From NCBI GenBank assembly GCA_009929695.1, contig RZZW01000004.1, positions 38,800 to 102,799 on the forward strand: a stretch of 64,000 nucleotides of DNA, in the 5' to 3' direction. Every line of letters begins with the position of its first letter. Within the stretch, counting starts at the first letter, position 1. Shown one piece after another: positions 51,336-64,000 of the stretch. The stretch comes from Clostridia bacterium. Lineage in GTDB: Bacteria; Bacillota; Clostridia; Oscillospirales; Ruminococcaceae. The notes below the pieces were generated by a model. It ran no database searches, was not told the origin of the DNA, and saw nothing but the letters and a program-made list of their open reading frames with translations. Both the position numbers and the translations under genes were made by a program.

Positions 51336-53225
51336 ATGAACGAACCTATTAGCATTTTAATTACCCTTGCATTTGTCATGTTCATCGTCATAGGCGGTCT
51401 TTCCATGATTGCCCATTTCTATACCCTAAACGGAATTAAATCCAAAACTGTTGGTGATGGACAGCATGGTGTTGCAAGGTTTCTCACTGGCAAGGAAATC
51501 AAAAAAGTGTACCAGCTCATAAAATACGATGTGAAGCATTGGCGAAAGGGCAAAAACCTTCCCACCGAGCAAGGCTTGGTGGTCGGCTCTGCCTCAAAGT
51601 CACTGGTGGATAGAATCAAAGGTAACAATGATGTGGTAGGATTGGTGGACAAAGGCGATGTTCACTGTCTTATGATCGGTGCCGCCGGTGTTGGTAAAAC
51701 TGCATTCTTCTTGTACCCTAACTTAGAATACGCTTGTGCCAGTGGAATGTCATTCATAACAACCGATACAAAGGGAGATTTGGCTCGAAACTACGGAGCA
51801 ATCGCCAAGGAATACTATGGCTACAACATAGCTGTTATAGACTTGCGTAACCCCACCAAGAGTGACGGAAACAATCTTCTTCATCTCGTCAATAAGTATA
51901 TGGACATCTATCGTGCCGATAACACCAACCTTATGGCTAAAGCTAAAGCAGAAAAGTATGCCAAGATTATTGCAAAAACCATTATCTGTACCGATGGAGA
52001 TAATTCCTCTATGGGACAAAATGCGTTCTTCTATGACTCAGCAGAGGGATTGCTCTCGGCTGTTATTTTGTTACTCGCAGAGTTTATGCCGCCTACTGAA
52101 ATTGATGGACAAATGGTTGATAGACGCCATATAGTTTCGGTGTTTAAAATGGTGCAAGACCTTACTGCACAGGGTAAAGCCAAAGGTAAAAGTCAGTTTC
52201 AAGAGCTGATGGAATTGTTGCCTTCCACCCATAAAGCCAGATGGTTTGCGGGTGCAGCACTCAATTCAAGTGAGGCAGCTATGGCATCGGTTCTCTCCAC
52301 CGTGCTGTCCCGGCTCAACGCATTTCTTGATACAGAGATGGAACAGATTCTGTGTTTTCATACAGCCATTGATGCAGAAAAGTTCTGCGCCGAGAAGTCG
52401 GCTATCTTTTTAATACTCCCCGAAGAAGATAACACAAAATATTTTATGGTCAGCCTATTCCTCCAACAGTTCTATCGTGAAATGCTTGCCGTAGCAGATG
52501 AGCATGGTGGAAAGCTACCCAACCGAGTTGTCATCTATGCCGATGAGATTGGCACAATACCGAAAATCGACAGCTTTGAAATGATGCTATCCGCAGGCAG
52601 ATCAAGAAGAATTTCCGTTGTACCAATCATTCAGTCCTTTGCCCAGCTTGACAAAAACTATGGAAAAGAAGGCTCCGAAATCATAACCGATAACTGCCAG
52701 CTCACTATCTTTGGTGGCTTTGCACCGAACTCCGAAACTGCAGAAACATTATCAAAAGCCCTTGGTACAAGAACCGTTATGAGTGGCAGCATCAGCCGAG
52801 GAAAGAACGATCCGTCACAGTCTTTGCAAATGATGGAACGACCACTGCTTACATCTGATGAACTGAAGTCGCTGAAAAAAGGCAGCTTTGTTGTGATGAA
52901 AACAGGCACACATCCCATGCAGACGAGGCTGCGATTGTTCCTCGACTGGGGTATCACATTTGACAAAACCTATGAAATAGAGCAGCGAGCCAATCGTAAA
53001 GTACATTATGCTGATAAAACTGAGTTAGAACAAAATATCATCGAAGCCTTTGGCAACAGCAAGTCCTATTCCCAAACGCCACCTGCTACTGAAAGCAGAA
53101 AATCTAATGATAGCATGGTTCACAGTCCAGCCACACAGCAAGACAAGAAAGCACAAAGAGGCAAAGGTAGCAGTTATTCAGCAGACAAAGTCAATCAAAA
53201 AATGAGTAGCGAAGAAAGGAATTAA
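51336..53225 (+). CDS. VirD4/TraG type IV coupling protein
   Basis: Walker A GAAGVGKTAFFLYPNLE, FITTDTKGDLARNYG, VVIYADEIGTIPKIDSFEMMLSAGRSRRISVVPIIQSFAQLDKNYG. Confidence 0.93.
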   Translation: MNEPISILITLAFVMFIVIGGLSMIAHFYTLNGIKSKTVGDGQHGVARFLTGKEIKKVYQLIKYDVKHWRKGKNLPTEQGLVVGSASKSLVDRIKGNNDVVGLVDKGDVHCLMIGAAGVGKTAFFLYPNLEYACASGMSFITTDTKGDLARNYGAIAKEYYGYNIAVIDLRNPTKSDGNNLLHLVNKYMDIYRADNTNLMAKAKAEKYAKIIAKTIICTDGDNSSMGQNAFFYDSAEGLLSAVILLLAEFMPPTEIDGQMVDRRHIVSVFKMVQDLTAQGKAKGKSQFQELMELLPSTHKARWFAGAALNSSEAAMASVLSTVLSRLNAFLDTEMEQILCFHTAIDAEKFCAEKSAIFLILPEEDNTKYFMVSLFLQQFYREMLAVADEHGGKLPNRVVIYADEIGTIPKIDSFEMMLSAGRSRRISVVPIIQSFAQLDKNYGKEGSEIITDNCQLTIFGGFAPNSETAETLSKALGTRTVMSGSISRGKNDPSQSLQMMERPLLTSDELKSLKKGSFVVMKTGTHPMQTRLRLFLDWGITFDKTYEIEQRANRKVHYADKTELEQNIIEAFGNSKSYSQTPPATESRKSNDSMVHSPATQQDKKAQRGKGSSYSADKVNQKMSSEERN

Positions 53226-53730: not shown

Positions 53731-53937
53731 ATGGCTATAAAATGCAACCTATCAATTCTTATGGGAGAACGAAAATATAAGATGCAAGATGTTCACGAAA
53801 AGACAGGCCTTTCAAGAGCAACTGTGTCAAATCTTTACCACGACAGGATGGAACGCATTGATTATTCTACTTTGAATAAGCTATGCAAATTATTTGATTG
53901 CGATGTAAGTAAAATACTTGAGTATTATGAAGAATAA
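53731..53937 (+). CDS. XRE family HTH regulator (68 aa) preceding the Ssp-like cluster
   Basis: MAIKCNLSILMGERKYKMQDVHEKTGLSRATVSNLYHDRMERIDYSTLNKLCKLFDCDVSKILEYYEE. Confidence 0.9.
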   Translation: MAIKCNLSILMGERKYKMQDVHEKTGLSRATVSNLYHDRMERIDYSTLNKLCKLFDCDVSKILEYYEE

Positions 53938-53966: not shown

Positions 53967-55682
53967 ATGTGGTGTAAAAAATGCAATAGAGAAACGAATA
54001 GTGGTATATGTGAGCTTTGTGGCACTCCTACCGAGCAAGATATTCCTGTACTGGTATATTGGTGCCAAGATTGCAAAACACCAATTATAAAACCATCAGA
54101 TAGGATCGATAAAAATATCTGCCCTATATGTGGTAAAGAAACAAAGTATATGTGTGCAGATCTTCGACCAGTGTTTCCAGAGGAGCGGTTATTAGTTGAG
54201 ATTTTATTAGCCAAGCCATTCGCATTTGCTGACAAAACAGTTTGGGCATCAAATAATCGATACTACATAGATGGAAAACCAAAGGCTCTCACAGGTAGTG
54301 CATATAAAAAGTACACGCCTGAGTATATTACAAAAGAACTGAATGCCAATAAGGATAAAAACAATTACGATGTATTTAATCAGACAATAGATAGATTTGT
54401 TTTAGCGAATAAAGAACGTCTTAATTACTTGTTTGATGAAGCAACAGATTTTATTAGAGATACCGCTCAAGATTATCAAGAAGAAAATATCGTCATTTCT
54501 TTTTCTGGTGGTAAGGACTCTACAGTTACAGCAGACCTAACAGTTAGAGCATTAAGCAATCCGAGCATTGTACATATCTTTGGTGATACCACATTGGAGT
54601 TTCCCACAACAATGGAATATTCAAAAAGATTTAGAGAAAATAATCCCAAGGCAATTTTTAAGATTGCCAAAAATCGAGAGCAAGATTTTTATACAATGTG
54701 TGAAGAAATTGGGCCGCCCGCTCGTATGCTTCGTTGGTGTTGTTCAATGTTTAAAACGGGACCAATAACCCGGGTACTAAACAACTTATATCGTGACAAA
54801 GATATACTTTCTTTTTATGGAATTAGAAAATGTGAATCGGTAAGCCGAAGTAAATACAACAGAGTCGAAGATAATGCAGAATCTGTGAAAATACAAAAAC
54901 AAAAAGTAGCTTCACCTATTTTTCTATGGCAAGACATAGATATTTGGCTTTATATTTTAGGCGAAAAAATAGATTTTAACGATGCATATCGTTTGGGATA
55001 TGATCGAGTAGGCTGTTGGTGTTGCCCTAATAACAACGAACGTGCTCAGTTTCTATCCAGCATCTATATGCCGGAGCAAGCAATGAAATGGAGAAAATTT
55101 CTCATAGACTTTGCCATTAAGGTAGGAAAACCAGATCCCGAGGTCTATGTCGATACAGGTAAATGGAAAGCTCGTCAAGGCGGAAACGGTTTATCTGCTG
55201 CAGAAGATGTAAAAATTAGATTTACTAATTGCACCGCTGAAGATAATGCCAAGATATACCGTTTGAATCGTCCCGTAGATGATATCTTTTTAGGAATGCT
55301 AACCCCATTTGGCAAAGTTTCAAAGGAACTTGGTAGAAAACTCATTAGCGAAACTGTAGTACTGGATATTAAAACAATGGTGCCAATTATATCAATACAG
55401 CCATTTAATCAAGATGGGTACGAGTTTTCAGTGAAAATTAAAACAATGAATGTCGCTAAGCACGATGACTTACAGCGAATGATAGGATATCAGGTAAGAA
55501 AATTTAACGCTTGCAGGAAATGCTTAAAATGTGAATCTCTATGCAAGTTTGGAGCAATTTCTATTATTGGCGATGAATATAGAATTAACGAAAATAAGTG
55601 CAGGCGATGCAAAATGTGCGTAACCGCAAAATATCTTGATGGTGGTTGCATGATGGACAGATACTTAAAAACAAAGGAATAA
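53967..55682 (+). CDS. PAPS-reductase/ATP-pyrophosphatase family protein with zinc ribbons and C-terminal FeS-like domain (SspD-like)
   Basis: N-terminal CKKCN...CELCG and CQDC...CPICG; PP-loop VISFSGGKDSTVTADL; GCWCCPNN; C-terminal CRKCLKCESLC...CRRCKMC. Confidence 0.88.
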   Translation: MWCKKCNRETNSGICELCGTPTEQDIPVLVYWCQDCKTPIIKPSDRIDKNICPICGKETKYMCADLRPVFPEERLLVEILLAKPFAFADKTVWASNNRYYIDGKPKALTGSAYKKYTPEYITKELNANKDKNNYDVFNQTIDRFVLANKERLNYLFDEATDFIRDTAQDYQEENIVISFSGGKDSTVTADLTVRALSNPSIVHIFGDTTLEFPTTMEYSKRFRENNPKAIFKIAKNREQDFYTMCEEIGPPARMLRWCCSMFKTGPITRVLNNLYRDKDILSFYGIRKCESVSRSKYNRVEDNAESVKIQKQKVASPIFLWQDIDIWLYILGEKIDFNDAYRLGYDRVGCWCCPNNNERAQFLSSIYMPEQAMKWRKFLIDFAIKVGKPDPEVYVDTGKWKARQGGNGLSAAEDVKIRFTNCTAEDNAKIYRLNRPVDDIFLGMLTPFGKVSKELGRKLISETVVLDIKTMVPIISIQPFNQDGYEFSVKIKTMNVAKHDDLQRMIGYQVRKFNACRKCLKCESLCKFGAISIIGDEYRINENKCRRCKMCVTAKYLDGGCMMDRYLKTKE

Positions 55683-55727
55683 GTGTTTGTGGCGCATCGC
55701 TTTCATCTAATCAGAAAGAGGATCAGC

Positions 55728-56615
55728 ATGGAAAAAATGAAATTCAGAGGACACGAAACCTTTTTTATACGAAAAGGTTGGTTATATAAAGGAATGAAAA
55801 ATGTTGTTGCTGATAGCACAGTGTTCATGGGTAACAATGGGAATCCTATGGATATTTTAGGTATTGGTTCAAACATGGTTAAGTCTCTGAGATACTGGCT
55901 ACAGGTTGTAGGTCTTACAGAAGAACCCAACTCAGGCAAACGTTATCAGCAACTTACTCCTTTGGGAGATATCATATACGAGAATGACAAATATATCGAA
56001 GAAATGGGCACCCTTTGGCTATTACAATACAAGCTGGCATCTAACAAAGAGGATGCTACTGCGTGGTACTATTTTTTTAATGAGTTTAACCGCAAAGAGT
56101 TTACAAAAGAGGATTTTGTTAAGCAACTTAATTCTTACATCTTGATCAATGAAAATGAGGTGTCTGAACGCTCCTTAGAAGATGATTTTAACTGCATAAT
56201 TAATACCTATGTTCCAAGAGTCAAATCCAATCCTGGCAAAGTTCACCCCGAAAGTAACATTGATTGTCCCTTAGGTGAATTGTCATTAATTGACTTTGTC
56301 AACAAAAAATCAAAAATCTATCGGAAAAGCACTCCAAAAATAGATACCATACATCCTCTCATAGCCTTGGCAATTATCGTAGACCAAGCAAATGGTAACA
56401 AGCAAATTAAAATATCGTCACTTCAAAGTGACCCATGCAACATTGGAAAACTTTTTAATCTTGATGTAATAGCTCTTACCAGTTTATTGAGCAAGTTAGA
56501 GTTATTAGGATACTTAAAGGTAATTCGTACGGCAGGTCTTGATGTTGTAAATATCGAAAGAGAAATTGATTTTATAGGGTGTGCGATTGAGTACTATAAT
56601 GCAATCAATCAGTAA
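55728..56615 (+). CDS. DUF4007 family protein (SspB-like)
   Basis: N-terminus MKFRGHETFFIRKGWLYKGMKNV typical of DUF4007; ATG 55728 follows an RBS. Confidence 0.85.
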   Translation: MEKMKFRGHETFFIRKGWLYKGMKNVVADSTVFMGNNGNPMDILGIGSNMVKSLRYWLQVVGLTEEPNSGKRYQQLTPLGDIIYENDKYIEEMGTLWLLQYKLASNKEDATAWYYFFNEFNRKEFTKEDFVKQLNSYILINENEVSERSLEDDFNCIINTYVPRVKSNPGKVHPESNIDCPLGELSLIDFVNKKSKIYRKSTPKIDTIHPLIALAIIVDQANGNKQIKISSLQSDPCNIGKLFNLDVIALTSLLSKLELLGYLKVIRTAGLDVVNIEREIDFIGCAIEYYNAINQ

Positions 56616-56643
56616 TACAACTCTATTAGATGGGGGAAAAACC

Positions 56644-59600
56644 ATGTTCGAAAATAAGATATGGGTAGAGAAAGGCTTCCAAACTTCGGTTAATATAGCC
56701 TACGACCTACACAATGACGATAAAATTAGGAATTTCATTCCGACAAGCTCAGCGATTGATGTTATTGAAGATATTATGTTAAGCACCAGTATACCTGATA
56801 GAGGTAGAGCAAGAATGCTTGTAGGTGCTTATGGTAGAGGTAAATCTCATATTATTTTAATGTTAATGTCTCTGTTGTTTAAAAAAGATATTAACGTATT
56901 TAGTAATCTGCTCAATAAAATAGAAGCTCAAAATCCAAAGCTATGTAGCTTCATTACTGAGTACATCGAAAGCGATAAAAAGATTCTTCCAATTATCATT
57001 AGTGGAAGCAGCACAAGTATAACACAGTCTTTTTTAAGTGCATTGCAGTCCGCTCTTAGCGATCAAAATTTATCTGATTTAATGCCGGAAACCAACTTTA
57101 AGGCTGCTGTGACCACTATTGAGCGTTGGAAAAATGAATATCCTGATACATACCAAAAGCTTGTAAACGAGCTAAATGTTTCGATAGATGATTTTGTGAT
57201 TTCGCTTAAGCAGTATGATGTGCCATCCTATGAAAAATTTGAAAAGCTATATCCCCTACTAACATCGGGCGGTGAGTTTAATCCCTTTGTTGGCTTTGAT
57301 GTTGTGGAACTTTATGAAAAAGTAGTCGATAAATTAAAGGACAAAGGATATAGTGGTGTCTACATCGTTTATGATGAGTTTAGCAAATATCTTGAATCGA
57401 GTATGTCGAATGCCACCATTAGTGATATAAAGCTTTTACAGGATTTTGCAGAAAAATGCGAGCGCAGCAAGGAAAAGCAGATGCATCTAATGCTTATTTC
57501 GCACAAAGATATTGCAAACTATATTGATAATAATTTACCTAAAGAGAAAGTGGATGGTTGGAAAGGTGTATCTGGTAGATTTAAGCATATACATCTACAC
57601 AATAACTTTTCGCAAATGTATGAAATTATATCTGCGGTAATTAAAAAAGAACCAAGCTTTTGGGAAAAATATGTGATTGATAACGGAAAGCGATTTGAGG
57701 ATTTAACACAGAGATTTACCATAAATGGTATCCTTGATAAAAACACTCCTGATATTTCTGAAATAGCTATTCAGGGATGTTATCCTCTACATCCAATTTC
57801 AACCTTTATTCTCCCAAGGCTATCTGAAAAAGTAGCACAAAACGAAAGAACTCTATTTACATTTTTATCAGCAGACAACAACTACACCCTAACTGCATTT
57901 TTAGAAAATGCAAAGGGTGAATTTCCCATGCTTACACCTGATTTAGTATATGACTATTTTGAACCATTGCTAAGAAAAGAGCCATACACAAGTGAAATCC
58001 ACAAGATATACGAAACAACATATAAAGTGCTTCAAAAAATTAATACTGAATCTTTGGCAACTAAAATTGTAAAAACCATATCCCTAATTTATATTGTGGA
58101 GCAGTTTGAAAAAATGCCGCCTACAAAGGATGTGCTTATTGATATATTCAAAAATATTGTATCAAGCATAGATGTAATTGAGGAAGCACTATCTGATTTA
58201 ATTGAAAAAGACTGCATAGTTTATTTGAAAAGAAGTAATGGATTTTTAAAACTTAAGGAAAGCTCCGGTGTTGATATAGGTGCAGAGATAACTGATGTAA
58301 TAAATAAAACAAAGCATATCGTAAGTGTTAAAAATATTCTCAATGATGCATCTTTTGACAGCTTTATGTACCCTACTGCCTATAATGATGAAATGGAAAT
58401 AACTCGCTATTTTGATTTCACTTTTATTGATAGCATTGAGTTTTTTGCTGTTGAGAACTGGAATAAGAAAATAGAAGATTTAGTGGCTGATGGAGTTGTA
58501 TATGCAATAATTCCATCAAGCAATGAGGATTTAGATAATATAACGAAAAGATTAAAATGCGGTGAATGTAACCATGACCGCATATTGTTTGCGGTACCTG
58601 AGCATTTTGCTGATATTGAAAAAATTGCATTTGAGTACAATGCAGTAAAGCTTTTGAAAAACAATGTTGTCGATGACGAGTTACTTGCAGATGAGTATGA
58701 TATTTATATTGAAGATTTAGAAGAAGTTATTAGTAAATATATTAATGGGTTTACAAAACCGGAGCTTGGTTTGGCAGTGTACTATTGGAATAGTCAAAGA
58801 CAACCGTTTAAAAGACGTGCTCAAATCTCTGCAAAGCTTTCACAAATCTGTACAGCTATCTATGCATTTACGCCTGTTATAAACAATGAATCTTTAAACA
58901 AAGATATTTTACCTACTGTTGCAATTAACAGCAGGAATAAGATTCTTATAGGGTTGTTAGAAAATGAATTGAGTTCAAATTTAGGACTTACGGGAAGTGG
59001 ACAAGAAGTATCATTTATGAGAAGTTCCTTGATTCAAATGGGAATCCTTCAGAACAAAGCAGACTATGCTGAACTTAATCTTAATCCAAAAGACAGAAAT
59101 ATGAGTTTAGTATTGCGTGTTATCAAAGCCTTCTTTGATGGGGCAGGTAATCAAGGGAGAAGCTTCGGAGAACTATATAAGATACTTACAGAACCACAGG
59201 TCGGTTTTGGTAATCCTTTTAACGGGGATACAACTTTACCTTGTCATGGCTATGGGCTAAAAAAAGGTGTTATACCAATTTATATTGCGACAGTGCTTCA
59301 TTCTTACAAGAAAAATACAGTCGTAAAAAGTAAGGGCGAGGAACTGAGAATAACAGCTGACCTCTTAAATAGTATAAATGAAAATCCAAATGATTTTACC
59401 CTTTACAGAGAAGATTGGAATGATGAGAAAGCCGCATATATTGCATCATTAGAAGAATTGTTTTCTGATTATGTAATTCAAAAGGAAAAAGATTATGGAA
59501 CATTTACATATATTATTTCGGCAATGTCGAGATGGTATATGAGCCTACCTAAGTATGCCAAGGAAATGAAGAAAGTATATAAAGGCAATGATAATGAGCC

Positions 59601-60318
59601 TGTAGACCTGCCAAAGTATCAAATTAAATTTATGAATAGTCTCAAGCAAGGGAACATCAATGCACGTGAATATTTGTTCGGGAAGATATTTGATATTTAT
59701 GGATACAAAGAATTTAGCCTTGGAATCATTGACAATATTAAGGCAACAAAAAGCACCTTCGACAATGCTAAAAATGGTTTGATTAAGCATCTGTCTGCTG
59801 ATATAAAATCTATTTTTAAAAAAGCAAACACCACTGGTGCTACACTTCCATCAGTTGTAAAGGATTTTGTTGAACAGCTTAAACCAACTACATTAAATTA
59901 TTTATTTCCTGACAATGAACATATTATTTTGCAACTTATGACTAATATAGGAAATGACGAAAAAACATTTGTTGAGAGGGTTGCAAAAGCTGTAACAAAT
60001 CTTAGAGTGGATGACTGGACGAGCGAAACAATTAGCACTTTTATGTCTAATTTAGAAGGAATGAAGAAAAGCATTGTAAACCATGATCGGATTCAATCCG
60101 CTGAAAAAAGCAACACTCAAAAGGTTAATGGATATATGATTTCGTTTGTTGGATCAGATGGGCAAGATGTCGTCCGTACTTTTGAGAAAACCGAGTACAG
60201 TAAAAGAGGACAGCTTTTATATAACGAAATTGCTAATGCACTTGATGAGATGGGAACATCAATCACAGAGCAAGAAAAAAGACAGATTTTAATGGAATTT
60301 ATAGAAAAAATGTGTTAA
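56644..60318 (+). CDS. Large P-loop ATPase (SspC-like)
   Basis: MFENKIWVEKGFQTSVNIAYDLHNDDKIRNFIPT; Walker A LVGAYGRGKSHIIL; VYIVYDEFSKYLE. ATG 56644 preferred over 56581. Confidence 0.82.
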   Translation: MFENKIWVEKGFQTSVNIAYDLHNDDKIRNFIPTSSAIDVIEDIMLSTSIPDRGRARMLVGAYGRGKSHIILMLMSLLFKKDINVFSNLLNKIEAQNPKLCSFITEYIESDKKILPIIISGSSTSITQSFLSALQSALSDQNLSDLMPETNFKAAVTTIERWKNEYPDTYQKLVNELNVSIDDFVISLKQYDVPSYEKFEKLYPLLTSGGEFNPFVGFDVVELYEKVVDKLKDKGYSGVYIVYDEFSKYLESSMSNATISDIKLLQDFAEKCERSKEKQMHLMLISHKDIANYIDNNLPKEKVDGWKGVSGRFKHIHLHNNFSQMYEIISAVIKKEPSFWEKYVIDNGKRFEDLTQRFTINGILDKNTPDISEIAIQGCYPLHPISTFILPRLSEKVAQNERTLFTFLSADNNYTLTAFLENAKGEFPMLTPDLVYDYFEPLLRKEPYTSEIHKIYETTYKVLQKINTESLATKIVKTISLIYIVEQFEKMPPTKDVLIDIFKNIVSSIDVIEEALSDLIEKDCIVYLKRSNGFLKLKESSGVDIGAEITDVINKTKHIVSVKNILNDASFDSFMYPTAYNDEMEITRYFDFTFIDSIEFFAVENWNKKIEDLVADGVVYAIIPSSNEDLDNITKRLKCGECNHDRILFAVPEHFADIEKIAFEYNAVKLLKNNVVDDELLADEYDIYIEDLEEVISKYINGFTKPELGLAVYYWNSQRQPFKRRAQISAKLSQICTAIYAFTPVINNESLNKDILPTVAINSRNKILIGLLENELSSNLGLTGSGQEVSFMRSSLIQMGILQNKADYAELNLNPKDRNMSLVLRVIKAFFDGAGNQGRSFGELYKILTEPQVGFGNPFNGDTTLPCHGYGLKKGVIPIYIATVLHSYKKNTVVKSKGEELRITADLLNSINENPNDFTLYREDWNDEKAAYIASLEELFSDYVIQKEKDYGTFTYIISAMSRWYMSLPKYAKEMKKVYKGNDNEPVDLPKYQIKFMNSLKQGNINAREYLFGKIFDIYGYKEFSLGIIDNIKATKSTFDNAKNGLIKHLSADIKSIFKKANTTGATLPSVVKDFVEQLKPTTLNYLFPDNEHIILQLMTNIGNDEKTFVERVAKAVTNLRVDDWTSETISTFMSNLEGMKKSIVNHDRIQSAEKSNTQKVNGYMISFVGSDGQDVVRTFEKTEYSKRGQLLYNEIANALDEMGTSITEQEKRQILMEFIEKMC

Positions 60319-60333
60319 ACAAGGGGTGATAAT

Positions 60334-61482
60334 ATGAGCCAAATTGCATACTTCAATAATGCAGCAACAACATATCCCAAGCCTGAGAAAGTATATGAGT
60401 TTACAGATAAATTTTATAGGCAATCCGGTGTGAACTCAGGTCGTGGACAGATAAATTCTGCAACTAAATTAACTTCAGCAACAAGAGAAATGCTTCTTGA
60501 TTTATTCCATGCCAAAAATAAAAGAGTGGTATTTACCCCCTCAGCAACAGAAGCAATAAACATCATATTGAGAGGACTTCCACTAACAGATAATTATACT
60601 GTGTATGTCTCTCCATTTGAGCATAATGCAGTAATCAGGACCCTTCACTACTTACAAGGAATATATAAGGTTAATGTTGTCACTTTAGCAGTTGAGGAAG
60701 GCACGCTTAGATATGATGTTGAAAAAATAAAATATCAATTTTCAGAAGTTCCGCCTAATTTAGTAATAGTGAGTCATGCAAGCAATGTTTGTGGTGTTGT
60801 TGCACCCATACAAGAGTTATGCACTATGTCACATAGTTACGGAGCTATAAATGTAATCGATATGTGTCAAACTGCAGGATTGATTGATATAGACCTTAGT
60901 GGCGCAATATACGATTTTGTAGTTTTTGCCGGGCATAAAACATTATATGCCACATTTGGAATTGCAGGATTTATCTGCAATGGTGATATCGTGTTGGAAC
61001 CGTTGATATTTGGTGGCACAGGTATTGACTCTGCAAATCCAGATGTTCCAAGCACAATTCCTGAGCGCTACGAAATTGGTAGCCAAAACATCTTAGGCAT
61101 TGCCGGTTTGTATGCTGCACTTGAATGGAATAAAGAGATAGGAATTTCTAATATTTATGCAAAAGAGCAAGACAACCATAACAAGCTCTTAACTATTTTA
61201 AAAAAGTATGAGAATATAAAAGTGATATTGCCTGCAGATGATGTTCAGACAGTTGGTGTTGTCTCCTGCGTATTTGATGGATATAGCAGTGACAATATCG
61301 GACAAATACTTAGTGAACAAGGTATTGAAGTACGAACAGGATTACACTGTGCTCCCACAGCACATAAGTTTTTAGGTACATTTCCTGCTGGTACTGTTAG
61401 GTTTAGTGTGGGCTATTTTAACACCAATAAGGACTTTGAAAAATTAGACGATGCGTTAGAGTATATTTGTGAAAATAGTTAG
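60334..61482 (+). CDS. Cysteine desulfurase-like class V aminotransferase (SspA/DndA/IscS-like)
   Basis: YFNNAATTYPKPEKV, FTPSATEAINIILRGL, PLP-Lys motif FAGHKTLYATFGIAGF, VRTGLHCAPTAHKFLGTFPAGTVRFSVGYFNT. Confidence 0.93.
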   Translation: MSQIAYFNNAATTYPKPEKVYEFTDKFYRQSGVNSGRGQINSATKLTSATREMLLDLFHAKNKRVVFTPSATEAINIILRGLPLTDNYTVYVSPFEHNAVIRTLHYLQGIYKVNVVTLAVEEGTLRYDVEKIKYQFSEVPPNLVIVSHASNVCGVVAPIQELCTMSHSYGAINVIDMCQTAGLIDIDLSGAIYDFVVFAGHKTLYATFGIAGFICNGDIVLEPLIFGGTGIDSANPDVPSTIPERYEIGSQNILGIAGLYAALEWNKEIGISNIYAKEQDNHNKLLTILKKYENIKVILPADDVQTVGVVSCVFDGYSSDNIGQILSEQGIEVRTGLHCAPTAHKFLGTFPAGTVRFSVGYFNTNKDFEKLDDALEYICENS

Positions 61483-61493
61483 GAGAAAATGCT

Positions 61494-61775
61494 ATGAGAG
61501 ATCAAGAGTTTGAAGATTATTTACTGCAAGACGATAATATTAAGAGCAAAGTGAAGGCTATTCGTTCAAGAATTAATAAAGCACGAATGATTGAACGACA
61601 CTTTGATACTTCGCTTGACCGAATAGTTTCTAATGATGATACAATGTATGAAACTCTCGTTCGTATAAAAGCTGAAATGAAAGATACAAATGGAAACTTA
61701 TCTAACTCTTTGAGAAAATACTATGCATTTATAAATGGAAAGTCATTTCCTACACTCGGAAACTACAAAAAATAA
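61494..61775 (+). CDS. Uncharacterised 93-aa protein between sspA-like and PLD-helicase genes
   Basis: MRDQEFEDYLLQDDNIKSKVKAIRSRINKARMIERHFDTSLDRIV...SLRKYYAFINGKSFPTLGNYKK; RBS taggagaaa; co-directional with short gaps. Confidence 0.75.
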   Translation: MRDQEFEDYLLQDDNIKSKVKAIRSRINKARMIERHFDTSLDRIVSNDDTMYETLVRIKAEMKDTNGNLSNSLRKYYAFINGKSFPTLGNYKK

Positions 61776-61790
61776 AGGAGGGGTACAATC

Positions 61791-64000
61791 TTGAGCTTTT
61801 TAGACATATCCATTAAAACTGAATATCGCTCCCTTATTGATGATATGGTCAATGATTTTTACACTCCTTTGTTGAATGAAGCGACTATATACAAACGAGC
61901 AGTTGGCTTTTTTTCGTCATCTGCTCTTATCGAAATCTCAAAGGGAATATCAGGACTTATAAAAAACGGTGGTAAAATCCAATTGGTTGCATCTCCGAAA
62001 TTGAGCGAGGAAGATATTGAAGCTATAGAGAAAGGCTTTGAAAAAAGAAAAGAAATTATTGAAAACTGTATTGAACGCTCATTTGAACAGCCTAAAAATA
62101 TATACGAAGAAAGAAGGCTTAACCTATTAGCAAACTTAATTGCCAATGGGCAGCTTGATATAAAAATTGCATTTTTAGAAGAAGAAAATAGTGTCGGTAT
62201 GTTTCATGAAAAAATGGGGCTTATGACTGATACTGAAGATAATATGATAGCTTTTACCGGTTCAATGAATGAGAGTAAAAATGCCTTTTCTCATAACTAT
62301 GAGTCCATCGATGTTTTTTGTTCTTGGACTCACGATAAAGAAAGAGTGTTGACCAAGGAAAGTGCATTCGCTTCTATTTGGGGTAATTGTGAACCTCATA
62401 TTAAAACAATTGACTTTCCAAAAGTTGCAAAAGATAAACTGCAGAAATATAAAAAGGATAGTGTAATAGATACAGATATAGACCATGATGAAAATCAGCA
62501 TTCAAGAAATACGGTAATCAATTCAACCTTTTTTCAAGCACCACAAGATATAGAATTTTACGATTATCAAAAAGATGCCGTGAACAACTGGGGCAGCAAT
62601 AACTTCAATGGAATATTTGATATGGCAACAGGCTCTGGAAAAACATATACAGCATTATACGGATTATGCCGCCTATCTGAACTCCTAAAAGAACAATTAT
62701 GTGTTGTGATTATTGCGCCATATCAGCATCTTGTTGAGCAATGGGTGGAGGATATTGAAGATTTTGGAGTGAAGCCAATTATTTGTTATTCTAACTATGC
62801 TCCGAAATGGAAAGAGTATTTTGGGGATGCCGTTAACGCCTATAACTCTGGCGTAATAAATAATTTTTGTGTTATAGCTACTAATGCTACATTTTCTACT
62901 GACGATTTTCAAAAGCATTTAAAAAAAATCAAAAAGGACTATTGTTTTGTGGTAGATGAAGCTCACAATTTTGGCTCAAAAAATCTTTCTAAGCTTTTAC
63001 CCAATAATGCAAAATTTAGATTGGCATTATCAGCAACAATAGAAAGATTTCGTGATCCGGAAGGGACTAAAGAGCTCTATAGCTTTTTTGGAGATATCTG
63101 CAAATCATTTACATTAGCAGATGCAATACAAAACCATTTTTTGACACCCTATTATTATCATCCTGTTTTAGTTACATTAACAGATAAAGAATTAGAAGAG
63201 TACCAAAATATAACTCTTAAGATTATTAAATGCGGCGGAGCAAGCGAAGAAAACTGCAGGAATAACCCAACTGTTGAATTATTGTTATTGCAACGTGCAC
63301 GAATTGTAGCAGGTGCGCATAACAAAGTACAAGCTCTTCTTGCGGCAATAACACCATTCAAAGAGGAAAGGCATATGTTAGTTTATTGTGGCGCTACAAA
63401 GTATGACAGGCAGGATATTGATGATTGTTCTGAAGTTAAGCAAATAGAAGAAATAACGAAAGAGCTTTACAAAACCCACAAAATGAAGGTGAGAAAATTC
63501 ACCTCAGAAGAAGATAAAGCAGAACGAGCTGAAATAAAGGAACTATTTACAAATGGCGATCTGCAGGCTATTACAGCTATAAAATGTTTAGATGAAGGTG
63601 TAAATATTCCTGCTATAAAAAAAGCCTTTATACTTGCAAGTAGTACAAATCCAAAAGAGTATATTCAAAGACGAGGTAGAGTACTACGAAAAGCCAAAGG
63701 TAAGGAATTTGCGGAAATATTTGACTTTATCACAATTCCACGTGAAATTAGTGAACTGCAATATTGCGATTCACAACAAATAAAACTCGAAATTTCTTTA
63801 GTAAAAAAAGAAATTGAAAGAATGATGGATTTCGCTGAAACATCTCGAAACCCATGGGAAATTGATAGTTTGAGGTCGGATCTATTAGAAGCTTATGGTG
63901 TTTGCATAAATCGGCGCGAGTTTGCCATCTGCACGGAGAAAACCTGCCACAGCATCGGAGACTTTCCGCCACCTCGCCGGCCCCCCTTCCACCAAAAAGC
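61791..64000 (+). CDS. PLD-like nuclease / DEAD-DEAH helicase fusion, 3' end open at window edge
   Basis: TTG start with RBS aaaggagggg; absent from ORF track because no stop is reached. PLD-like FHEKMGLMTDTEDNMIAFTGSMNESKNAF; MATGSGKT; VVDEAHNFG; LALSATIERF; EYIQRRGRVLRKAKG. Confidence 0.88.
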   Translation, partial: MSFLDISIKTEYRSLIDDMVNDFYTPLLNEATIYKRAVGFFSSSALIEISKGISGLIKNGGKIQLVASPKLSEEDIEAIEKGFEKRKEIIENCIERSFEQPKNIYEERRLNLLANLIANGQLDIKIAFLEEENSVGMFHEKMGLMTDTEDNMIAFTGSMNESKNAFSHNYESIDVFCSWTHDKERVLTKESAFASIWGNCEPHIKTIDFPKVAKDKLQKYKKDSVIDTDIDHDENQHSRNTVINSTFFQAPQDIEFYDYQKDAVNNWGSNNFNGIFDMATGSGKTYTALYGLCRLSELLKEQLCVVIIAPYQHLVEQWVEDIEDFGVKPIICYSNYAPKWKEYFGDAVNAYNSGVINNFCVIATNATFSTDDFQKHLKKIKKDYCFVVDEAHNFGSKNLSKLLPNNAKFRLALSATIERFRDPEGTKELYSFFGDICKSFTLADAIQNHFLTPYYYHPVLVTLTDKELEEYQNITLKIIKCGGASEENCRNNPTVELLLLQRARIVAGAHNKVQALLAAITPFKEERHMLVYCGATKYDRQDIDDCSEVKQIEEITKELYKTHKMKVRKFTSEEDKAERAEIKELFTNGDLQAITAIKCLDEGVNIPAIKKAFILASSTNPKEYIQRRGRVLRKAKGKEFAEIFDFITIPREISELQYCDSQQIKLEISLVKKEIERMMDFAETSRNPWEIDSLRSDLLEAYGVCINRREFAICTEKTCHSIGDFPPPRRPPFHQK

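Follow-up and report, generated by a model that had tools for sequence, protein, structure and literature searches.

Three described systems resemble the locus studied here. In the first, SspABCD is paired with either SspE or SspFGH, and 83.9% of sspBCD loci have neither sspE nor sspFGH (PMC8092258). In the second, PbeABCD is paired with DndCDEA (PMC6459918); PbeA is an HKD nuclease-helicase, PbeB a small disordered protein, PbeC a CxC ABC-ATPase and PbeD a relative of DndE (PMC10853773). A third system, Type 4 BREX, combines a BrxP-like sulfurtransferase, a DUF4007 protein, a BrxC/SspC-like ATPase and a cysteine desulfurase, next to which stands a small zinc finger protein (PMC12839542).

We call "the window" the whole stretch of 64,000 nucleotides which was analysed. 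The genes of its cluster are listed in Table 1: those of SspB (DUF4007) and of SspC adjoin that of an SspD-type sulfurtransferase, as in SspABCD (PMC8092258), and together with SspA all of them lie beside a gene for a 93-residue protein, p93. This open reading frame does lie between the cysteine desulfurase and the PLD-helicase, as the initial annotation placed it, and the Ssp-like (phosphorothioation-type) defence cluster proposed there is borne out by the neighbouring SspD-, SspB-, SspC- and SspA-type genes. The locus differs from SspABCD (PMC8092258) in three ways: the effector is of the PbeA type instead of SspE or SspFGH, the sulfurtransferase has a stronger match to BrxP than to SspD, and p93 is not a known Ssp component. 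It shares PbeA with the PbeABCD module (PMC6459918, PMC10853773), which has been described with Dnd genes or alone, whereas here it accompanies Ssp genes. All four of the Type 4 BREX components named above have counterparts here (PMC12839542), but p93, unlike the zinc finger of that system, is free of cysteine, which also rules it out as a zinc finger itself; neither PglZ nor BrxL was seen around the related loci L003 and L071, judging from gene sizes and positions and from a PADLOC run on the genes following pbeA.

Table 1. Features of the cluster in the window.
Feature	Position	Strand	Basis
Cro/C1-type HTH protein, 68 aa, heading the operon	53731..53937	+	Pfam HTH_26 1e-19; counterparts at this position in L003 and L071
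SspD/BrxP-like PAPS-reductase-type sulfurtransferase with C-terminal Fe-S region	53967..55682	+	PADLOC BrxP 3e-79, SspD 7e-15; Pfam PAPS_reduct
SspB-like DUF4007 protein (nickase by family)	55728..56615	+	Pfam DUF4007 2e-86, PADLOC SspB
SspC/BrxC-like ATPase	56641..60318	+	PADLOC SspC 4e-117
SspA-like cysteine desulfurase	60334..61482	+	PADLOC SspA 4e-32, Pfam Aminotran_5
Ribosome-binding site AGGAG of p93	61481..61485	+	Sequence; overlaps the SspA stop codon (61480-61482)
p93, all-helical small protein of 93 aa	61494..61775	+	ORF, RBS, relatives, dN/dS, AF2 pLDDT 93.5
Most conserved part of p93: last long helix N-x-x-R-K-Y-Y and tail F-P-x-L-x-x-Y	61704..61772	+	Alignments, helix 68-81
PbeA-like HKD nuclease-SF2 helicase	61791..63998	+	PADLOC PbeA 1e-250, NCBIfam TIGR04095; homologous to ~63903, then contig end

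The 68-residue HTH protein is probably a transcriptional regulator of the cluster. In the window, PbeA carries the HxK motif at residues 139-141, and its gene runs into the end of the contig. One can notice that the last ~95 bp of the contig (63904-64000) are richer in G+C, cannot be aligned with other PbeA proteins and occur as a single copy in the genome: they represent a chimeric contig end, or else pbeA is truly truncated. The remainder of the Pbe module (PbeC) was not found elsewhere in this genome, which is no evidence of its absence from a genome ~92% complete with a contig that ends inside pbeA. The complete relatives L002, L003 and L071 show what may follow: after pbeA comes a PbeC ATPase (PADLOC was run for it on L003 and L071) and then an open reading frame of the size of PbeD, which in L003 and L071 has no PADLOC match. 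A small PbeB-like open reading frame lies between pbeA and pbeC in L071 (11058-11234) and in L002 (12454-12639). The PADLOC, Pfam and NCBIfam identities in the window and this continuation in the relatives thus indicate, at the level of gene content, a hybrid in which an Ssp-type modification cluster is joined to a Pbe-type effector. In the literature consulted we found no description of such an Ssp-Pbe pairing (53967-63998 in the window; L002, L003 and L071).

Several other genes lie in or around these clusters. A 5'-nucleotidase gene is situated 3' of the Pbe module in L071 (13794-14717; PF06189, PADLOC candidate PDC-S08), and a gene which looks similar by eye in L002 (16201-17166). Large open reading frames resembling DUF262, again by eye, stand in or beside the Ssp clusters at L005:7684-9831, L110:10496-12676, L111:15124-17313, L112:15381-17546, L114:6867-9116 and L117:1374-3503. 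Just upstream of the window's cluster, 51336-53225 holds what appears by eye to be a coupling-protein gene of the VirD4 type, and a fragment similar to it is found near the cluster of L043. The Ssp-Pbe cluster is probably carried by an integrative conjugative element.

The p93 frame runs from an ATG at 61494 to a TAA at 61773-61775, with its AGGAG 8 bp ahead of the ATG; it is separated by 11 bp from sspA and by 15 bp from pbeA, which starts with a TTG (61791) preceded by AAGGAGGGG. It is not a chance frame, because full-length relatives occupy the same place in L002, L003 and L071 (73%, 66% and 72% identical to the window's protein, respectively); in L004 a stretch of 72 codons, 67% identical, stays open up to the contig end. 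Between the window and other loci dN is 0.19-0.28 with dS saturated or nearly so, and the two comparisons for which dN/dS could be computed gave ~0.18 and 0.035. The dN of p93 matches those of SspA, SspB and SspC and is below that of PbeA. Hence, p93 is a genuine gene under purifying selection, with a constraint equal to that of its neighbours.

The AlphaFold model headed by the window protein is all-helical, as the initial annotation had predicted, with five main helices (3-11, 21-37, 41-45, 48-61 and 68-81) and a pLDDT of 93.5; a second model, with a phage relative at the head of an alignment which largely overlaps the first, has the same helices (pLDDT 92.5). The conserved core consists of N71, R74-K75-Y76-Y77 and F85-P86, plus L41, V45 and R26. 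The segment SLRKYYAFINGKSFPT, which had been taken for a small domain of its own, turns out to be the last long helix and the conserved FP(x)L tail, that is, the region with the strongest conservation in the family. The protein had also been described as basic: its net charge is positive, although only mildly so (18 K+R against 14 D+E). In agreement with the catalytic motif having been reported as missing, neither p93 nor its relatives gave anything above noise in Pfam, NCBIfam, PADLOC and PHROGs; a search of PDB sequences gave a single match at E 0.25, which we rejected.

A DNA-binding or adaptor domain had been suggested too, and a fold of DNA-binding type is indeed the best structural match, although a weak one. 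Most of the Foldseek matches which span the bulk of p93 come from core-binding domains of tyrosine recombinases or from proteins with that fold: XerA (first search, TM 0.62/0.57; second search, TM 0.58; 81-91 columns, E > 1) and, recurrently, 2kiw, Tn1549 integrase, IntI, lambda Int, YopR and Cre (E > 1). The other recurrent match is the retroviral matrix, mostly over shorter stretches and with lower TM. No match was significant, either against the PDB with both models (all E > 1) or against BFVD. By hhalign, the alignment of p93 with Xer and phage integrase core-binding domains is collinear across 73-75 columns, within chance level, with probabilities of 5-11% which hardly exceed those of shuffled-column controls. 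The core-binding (SAM-like) domains of XerA, Tn1549 Int and lambda Int thus share with p93 their length, their helix order and the best TM-scores, whereas p93 has no catalytic domain and the similarity reaches significance neither by structure E-value nor by profile. As these fold and profile matches are weak and non-significant, we keep the core-binding-like, DNA-binding reading as a working hypothesis.

The remote homology search brought relatives on plasmids and in phages, because of which the word "orphan" applied to p93 by the initial annotation is not quite right, although it does lack a curated family. Planococcus maritimus carries relatives 53-56% identical on two plasmids (tblastn), and on both of them the gene lies upstream of those for an AlwI endonuclease, a Vsr nuclease and a cytosine methyltransferase. 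Five gut phages carry relatives 31% identical (tblastn, E 5e-8), and in both of the two which were examined the terminase region and the portal gene flank it; further phage-type contigs with relatives were found in IMG/VR. In four phage contigs (L050, L051, L057 and L058) a PAPS-reductase-type gene, identified with Pfam in L050 alone, is directly 3' of the p93 relative, and in some of them this arrangement sits directly before the portal gene. Most distinct phage contexts have no modification gene directly beside the relative. Distant lone relatives occur on chromosomes of the same phylum, at L074:8575-8907 (- strand), L075:9350-9613, L080:7303-7662 (- strand) and L081:6958-7254, with no defence genes seen alongside these four. 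A weak p93-like stretch in a 934-residue open reading frame of L079 was judged doubtful as a relative. In 98% of bootstrap trees the p93s linked to Ssp genes fall into a single group.

We counted the presence of p93 over the inspectable clusters which carry Ssp genes and a PbeA-like gene. It is intact in four of them (the window, L002, L003 and L071). In L005 and L006 it has decayed through frameshifts, stops and the loss of its 5' part, with the other genes intact; L002, L004, L005 and L006 derive from draft assemblies or metagenome bins, with species assignments that may be incorrect. In the genome G474 (pieces L072 and L073, with SspC on L084) it is split by a segment of ~31 kb between two transposase genes, the other genes being intact here as well. 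The cluster of G474 is almost identical to that of L003, and therefore the disruption is recent. The two transposase genes (L072:4400-5722 and L073:13662-14984) have products of equal length with identical first 100 residues, and the insert looks by eye like a microcompartment-type operon. Six clusters with Ssp genes and PbeA have no p93 (L042, L043, L112, L114, L115 and L117), and it is also missing from L118, where the Pbe genes are in a different order. In L042 the 136-bp gap holds no p93 remnant, while all the other genes are 56-73% identical to the window's; since the SspC tree places L042 inside the p93-bearing group, p93 was most likely lost there. Across 399 genomes of the phylum, 27 of which have an SspC-like gene, a profile search found Ssp-linked p93 in just three: the window's genome, G735 and G474. 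This shows that p93 is not a constant component of Ssp clusters, being absent or broken in most of the homologous clusters inspected, and it speaks strongly against p93 being required.

The account which we tentatively prefer, with less than even confidence, is that p93 is an optional and mobile accessory of the Ssp modification side which binds DNA and affects the choice of target or the timing. It would be a free-standing five-helix domain serving the Ssp phosphorothioation module as an optional helper; it would bind DNA near SspB/SspC and would influence where or when the modification is made, with an effect on modification and not on restriction, both the DNA binding and the partner being inferred. 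For it speak the co-inheritance of p93 with the Ssp genes (detailed below), the occurrence of similar effectors with and without it, its dN like that of SspA, SspB and SspC, the predicted fold, and the nearness of some relatives to DNA-modification genes (AlwI and the cytosine methyltransferase; the PAPS-reductase-type gene in several phage contigs). Against it speak the mildly positive charge, the Foldseek E-values, the hhalign probabilities and the majority of phage contexts in which no modification gene adjoins the relative, and repeated loss is equally expected of a passenger gene. That second possibility, rather unlikely in our opinion, is that p93 belongs to a mobile family found chiefly in phages and plasmids, was brought into the Ssp operon from there and acts independently of phosphorothioation defence, for instance by regulating or protecting the mobile element. 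The location of gut-phage relatives between the terminase and portal genes, the relative standing alone upstream of the AlwI island and the patchy presence of p93, with decay, fit such a passenger; but p93 keeps one operon slot across genera with a dN as low as that of the Ssp enzymes, and the single group formed by the Ssp-linked p93s would be expected under long residence and selection. A bolder extension, which we regard as unlikely, is that p93 founds a mobile, stand-alone family resembling recombinase core-binding domains which, in phages, restriction plasmids and Ssp-Pbe clusters, would steer DNA-modifying enzymes to their targets.

The initial annotation had p93 coupling modification to the effector, and had taken absence from homologous clusters as what would speak against this. 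The idea of a subunit which physically links the Ssp enzymes to PbeA is suggested by the place of p93 exactly at the junction of both modules in the window, L002, L003 and L071. Nevertheless, it is absent from L042, which has a closely similar Pbe module, and from five further Ssp-PbeA clusters, and broken in three intact ones. Moreover, between L002 and L071 the identities are 86, 84, 83, 78 and 84% for SspD, SspB, SspC, SspA and p93 respectively, against only 55, 37 and 42% for PbeA, PbeC and PbeD; in the comparison of L002 with the p93-less L042 the Ssp genes reach 71-76% and the Pbe genes 76-78%. This means that the effector has been exchanged at the boundary between p93 and pbeA while p93 stayed with the Ssp genes: its inheritance follows the Ssp genes, not the Pbe genes. 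That closely similar Pbe effectors exist with and without p93 speaks most strongly against coupling as an obligatory role. The coupling proposal is therefore unsupported, and we hold it to be quite improbable.

A very improbable alternative is that p93 restrains the PbeA-D effector until a phage trigger removes it. Its small size and its slot just ahead of pbeA would suit such a function, and small regulators have been proposed in such systems, a brake-type role having been put forward for PbeB (PMC10853773). But PbeA, PbeC and PbeD are intact at loci where p93 is decayed or missing, whereas losing the brake should make them toxic, and the separate PbeB-like frame is already present between pbeA and pbeC in L071 and L002. 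We rejected the identification of p93 with PbeB itself: PbeB is mostly disordered and lies between pbeA and pbeC, whereas p93 is ordered in the AlphaFold models and precedes pbeA, and the relatives have a separate small frame in the place of PbeB. Finally, a sulfur relay between SspA and SspD, for which one could invoke the position directly 3' of the desulfurase and the Se_S_carrier protein found in that slot in L043, is nearly excluded because p93 has no cysteine in the window, with none conserved across the family, and its predicted fold is all-helical. That protein of L043 (10285-10473, - strand; Pfam 2.5e-11), which follows the desulfurase in a divergent Ssp-Pbe cluster, is itself a possible sulfur relay.

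The Pbe module directly 3' of Ssp genes is one candidate effector for the sspBCD loci which have no reported effector, and p93 marks the point of recombination between the modules of modification and effector. The natural losses of p93 are ready-made knock-outs with which its role can be tested. Finally, its phage relatives raise the question of whether a helper of DNA modification may be common to phages and defence systems.
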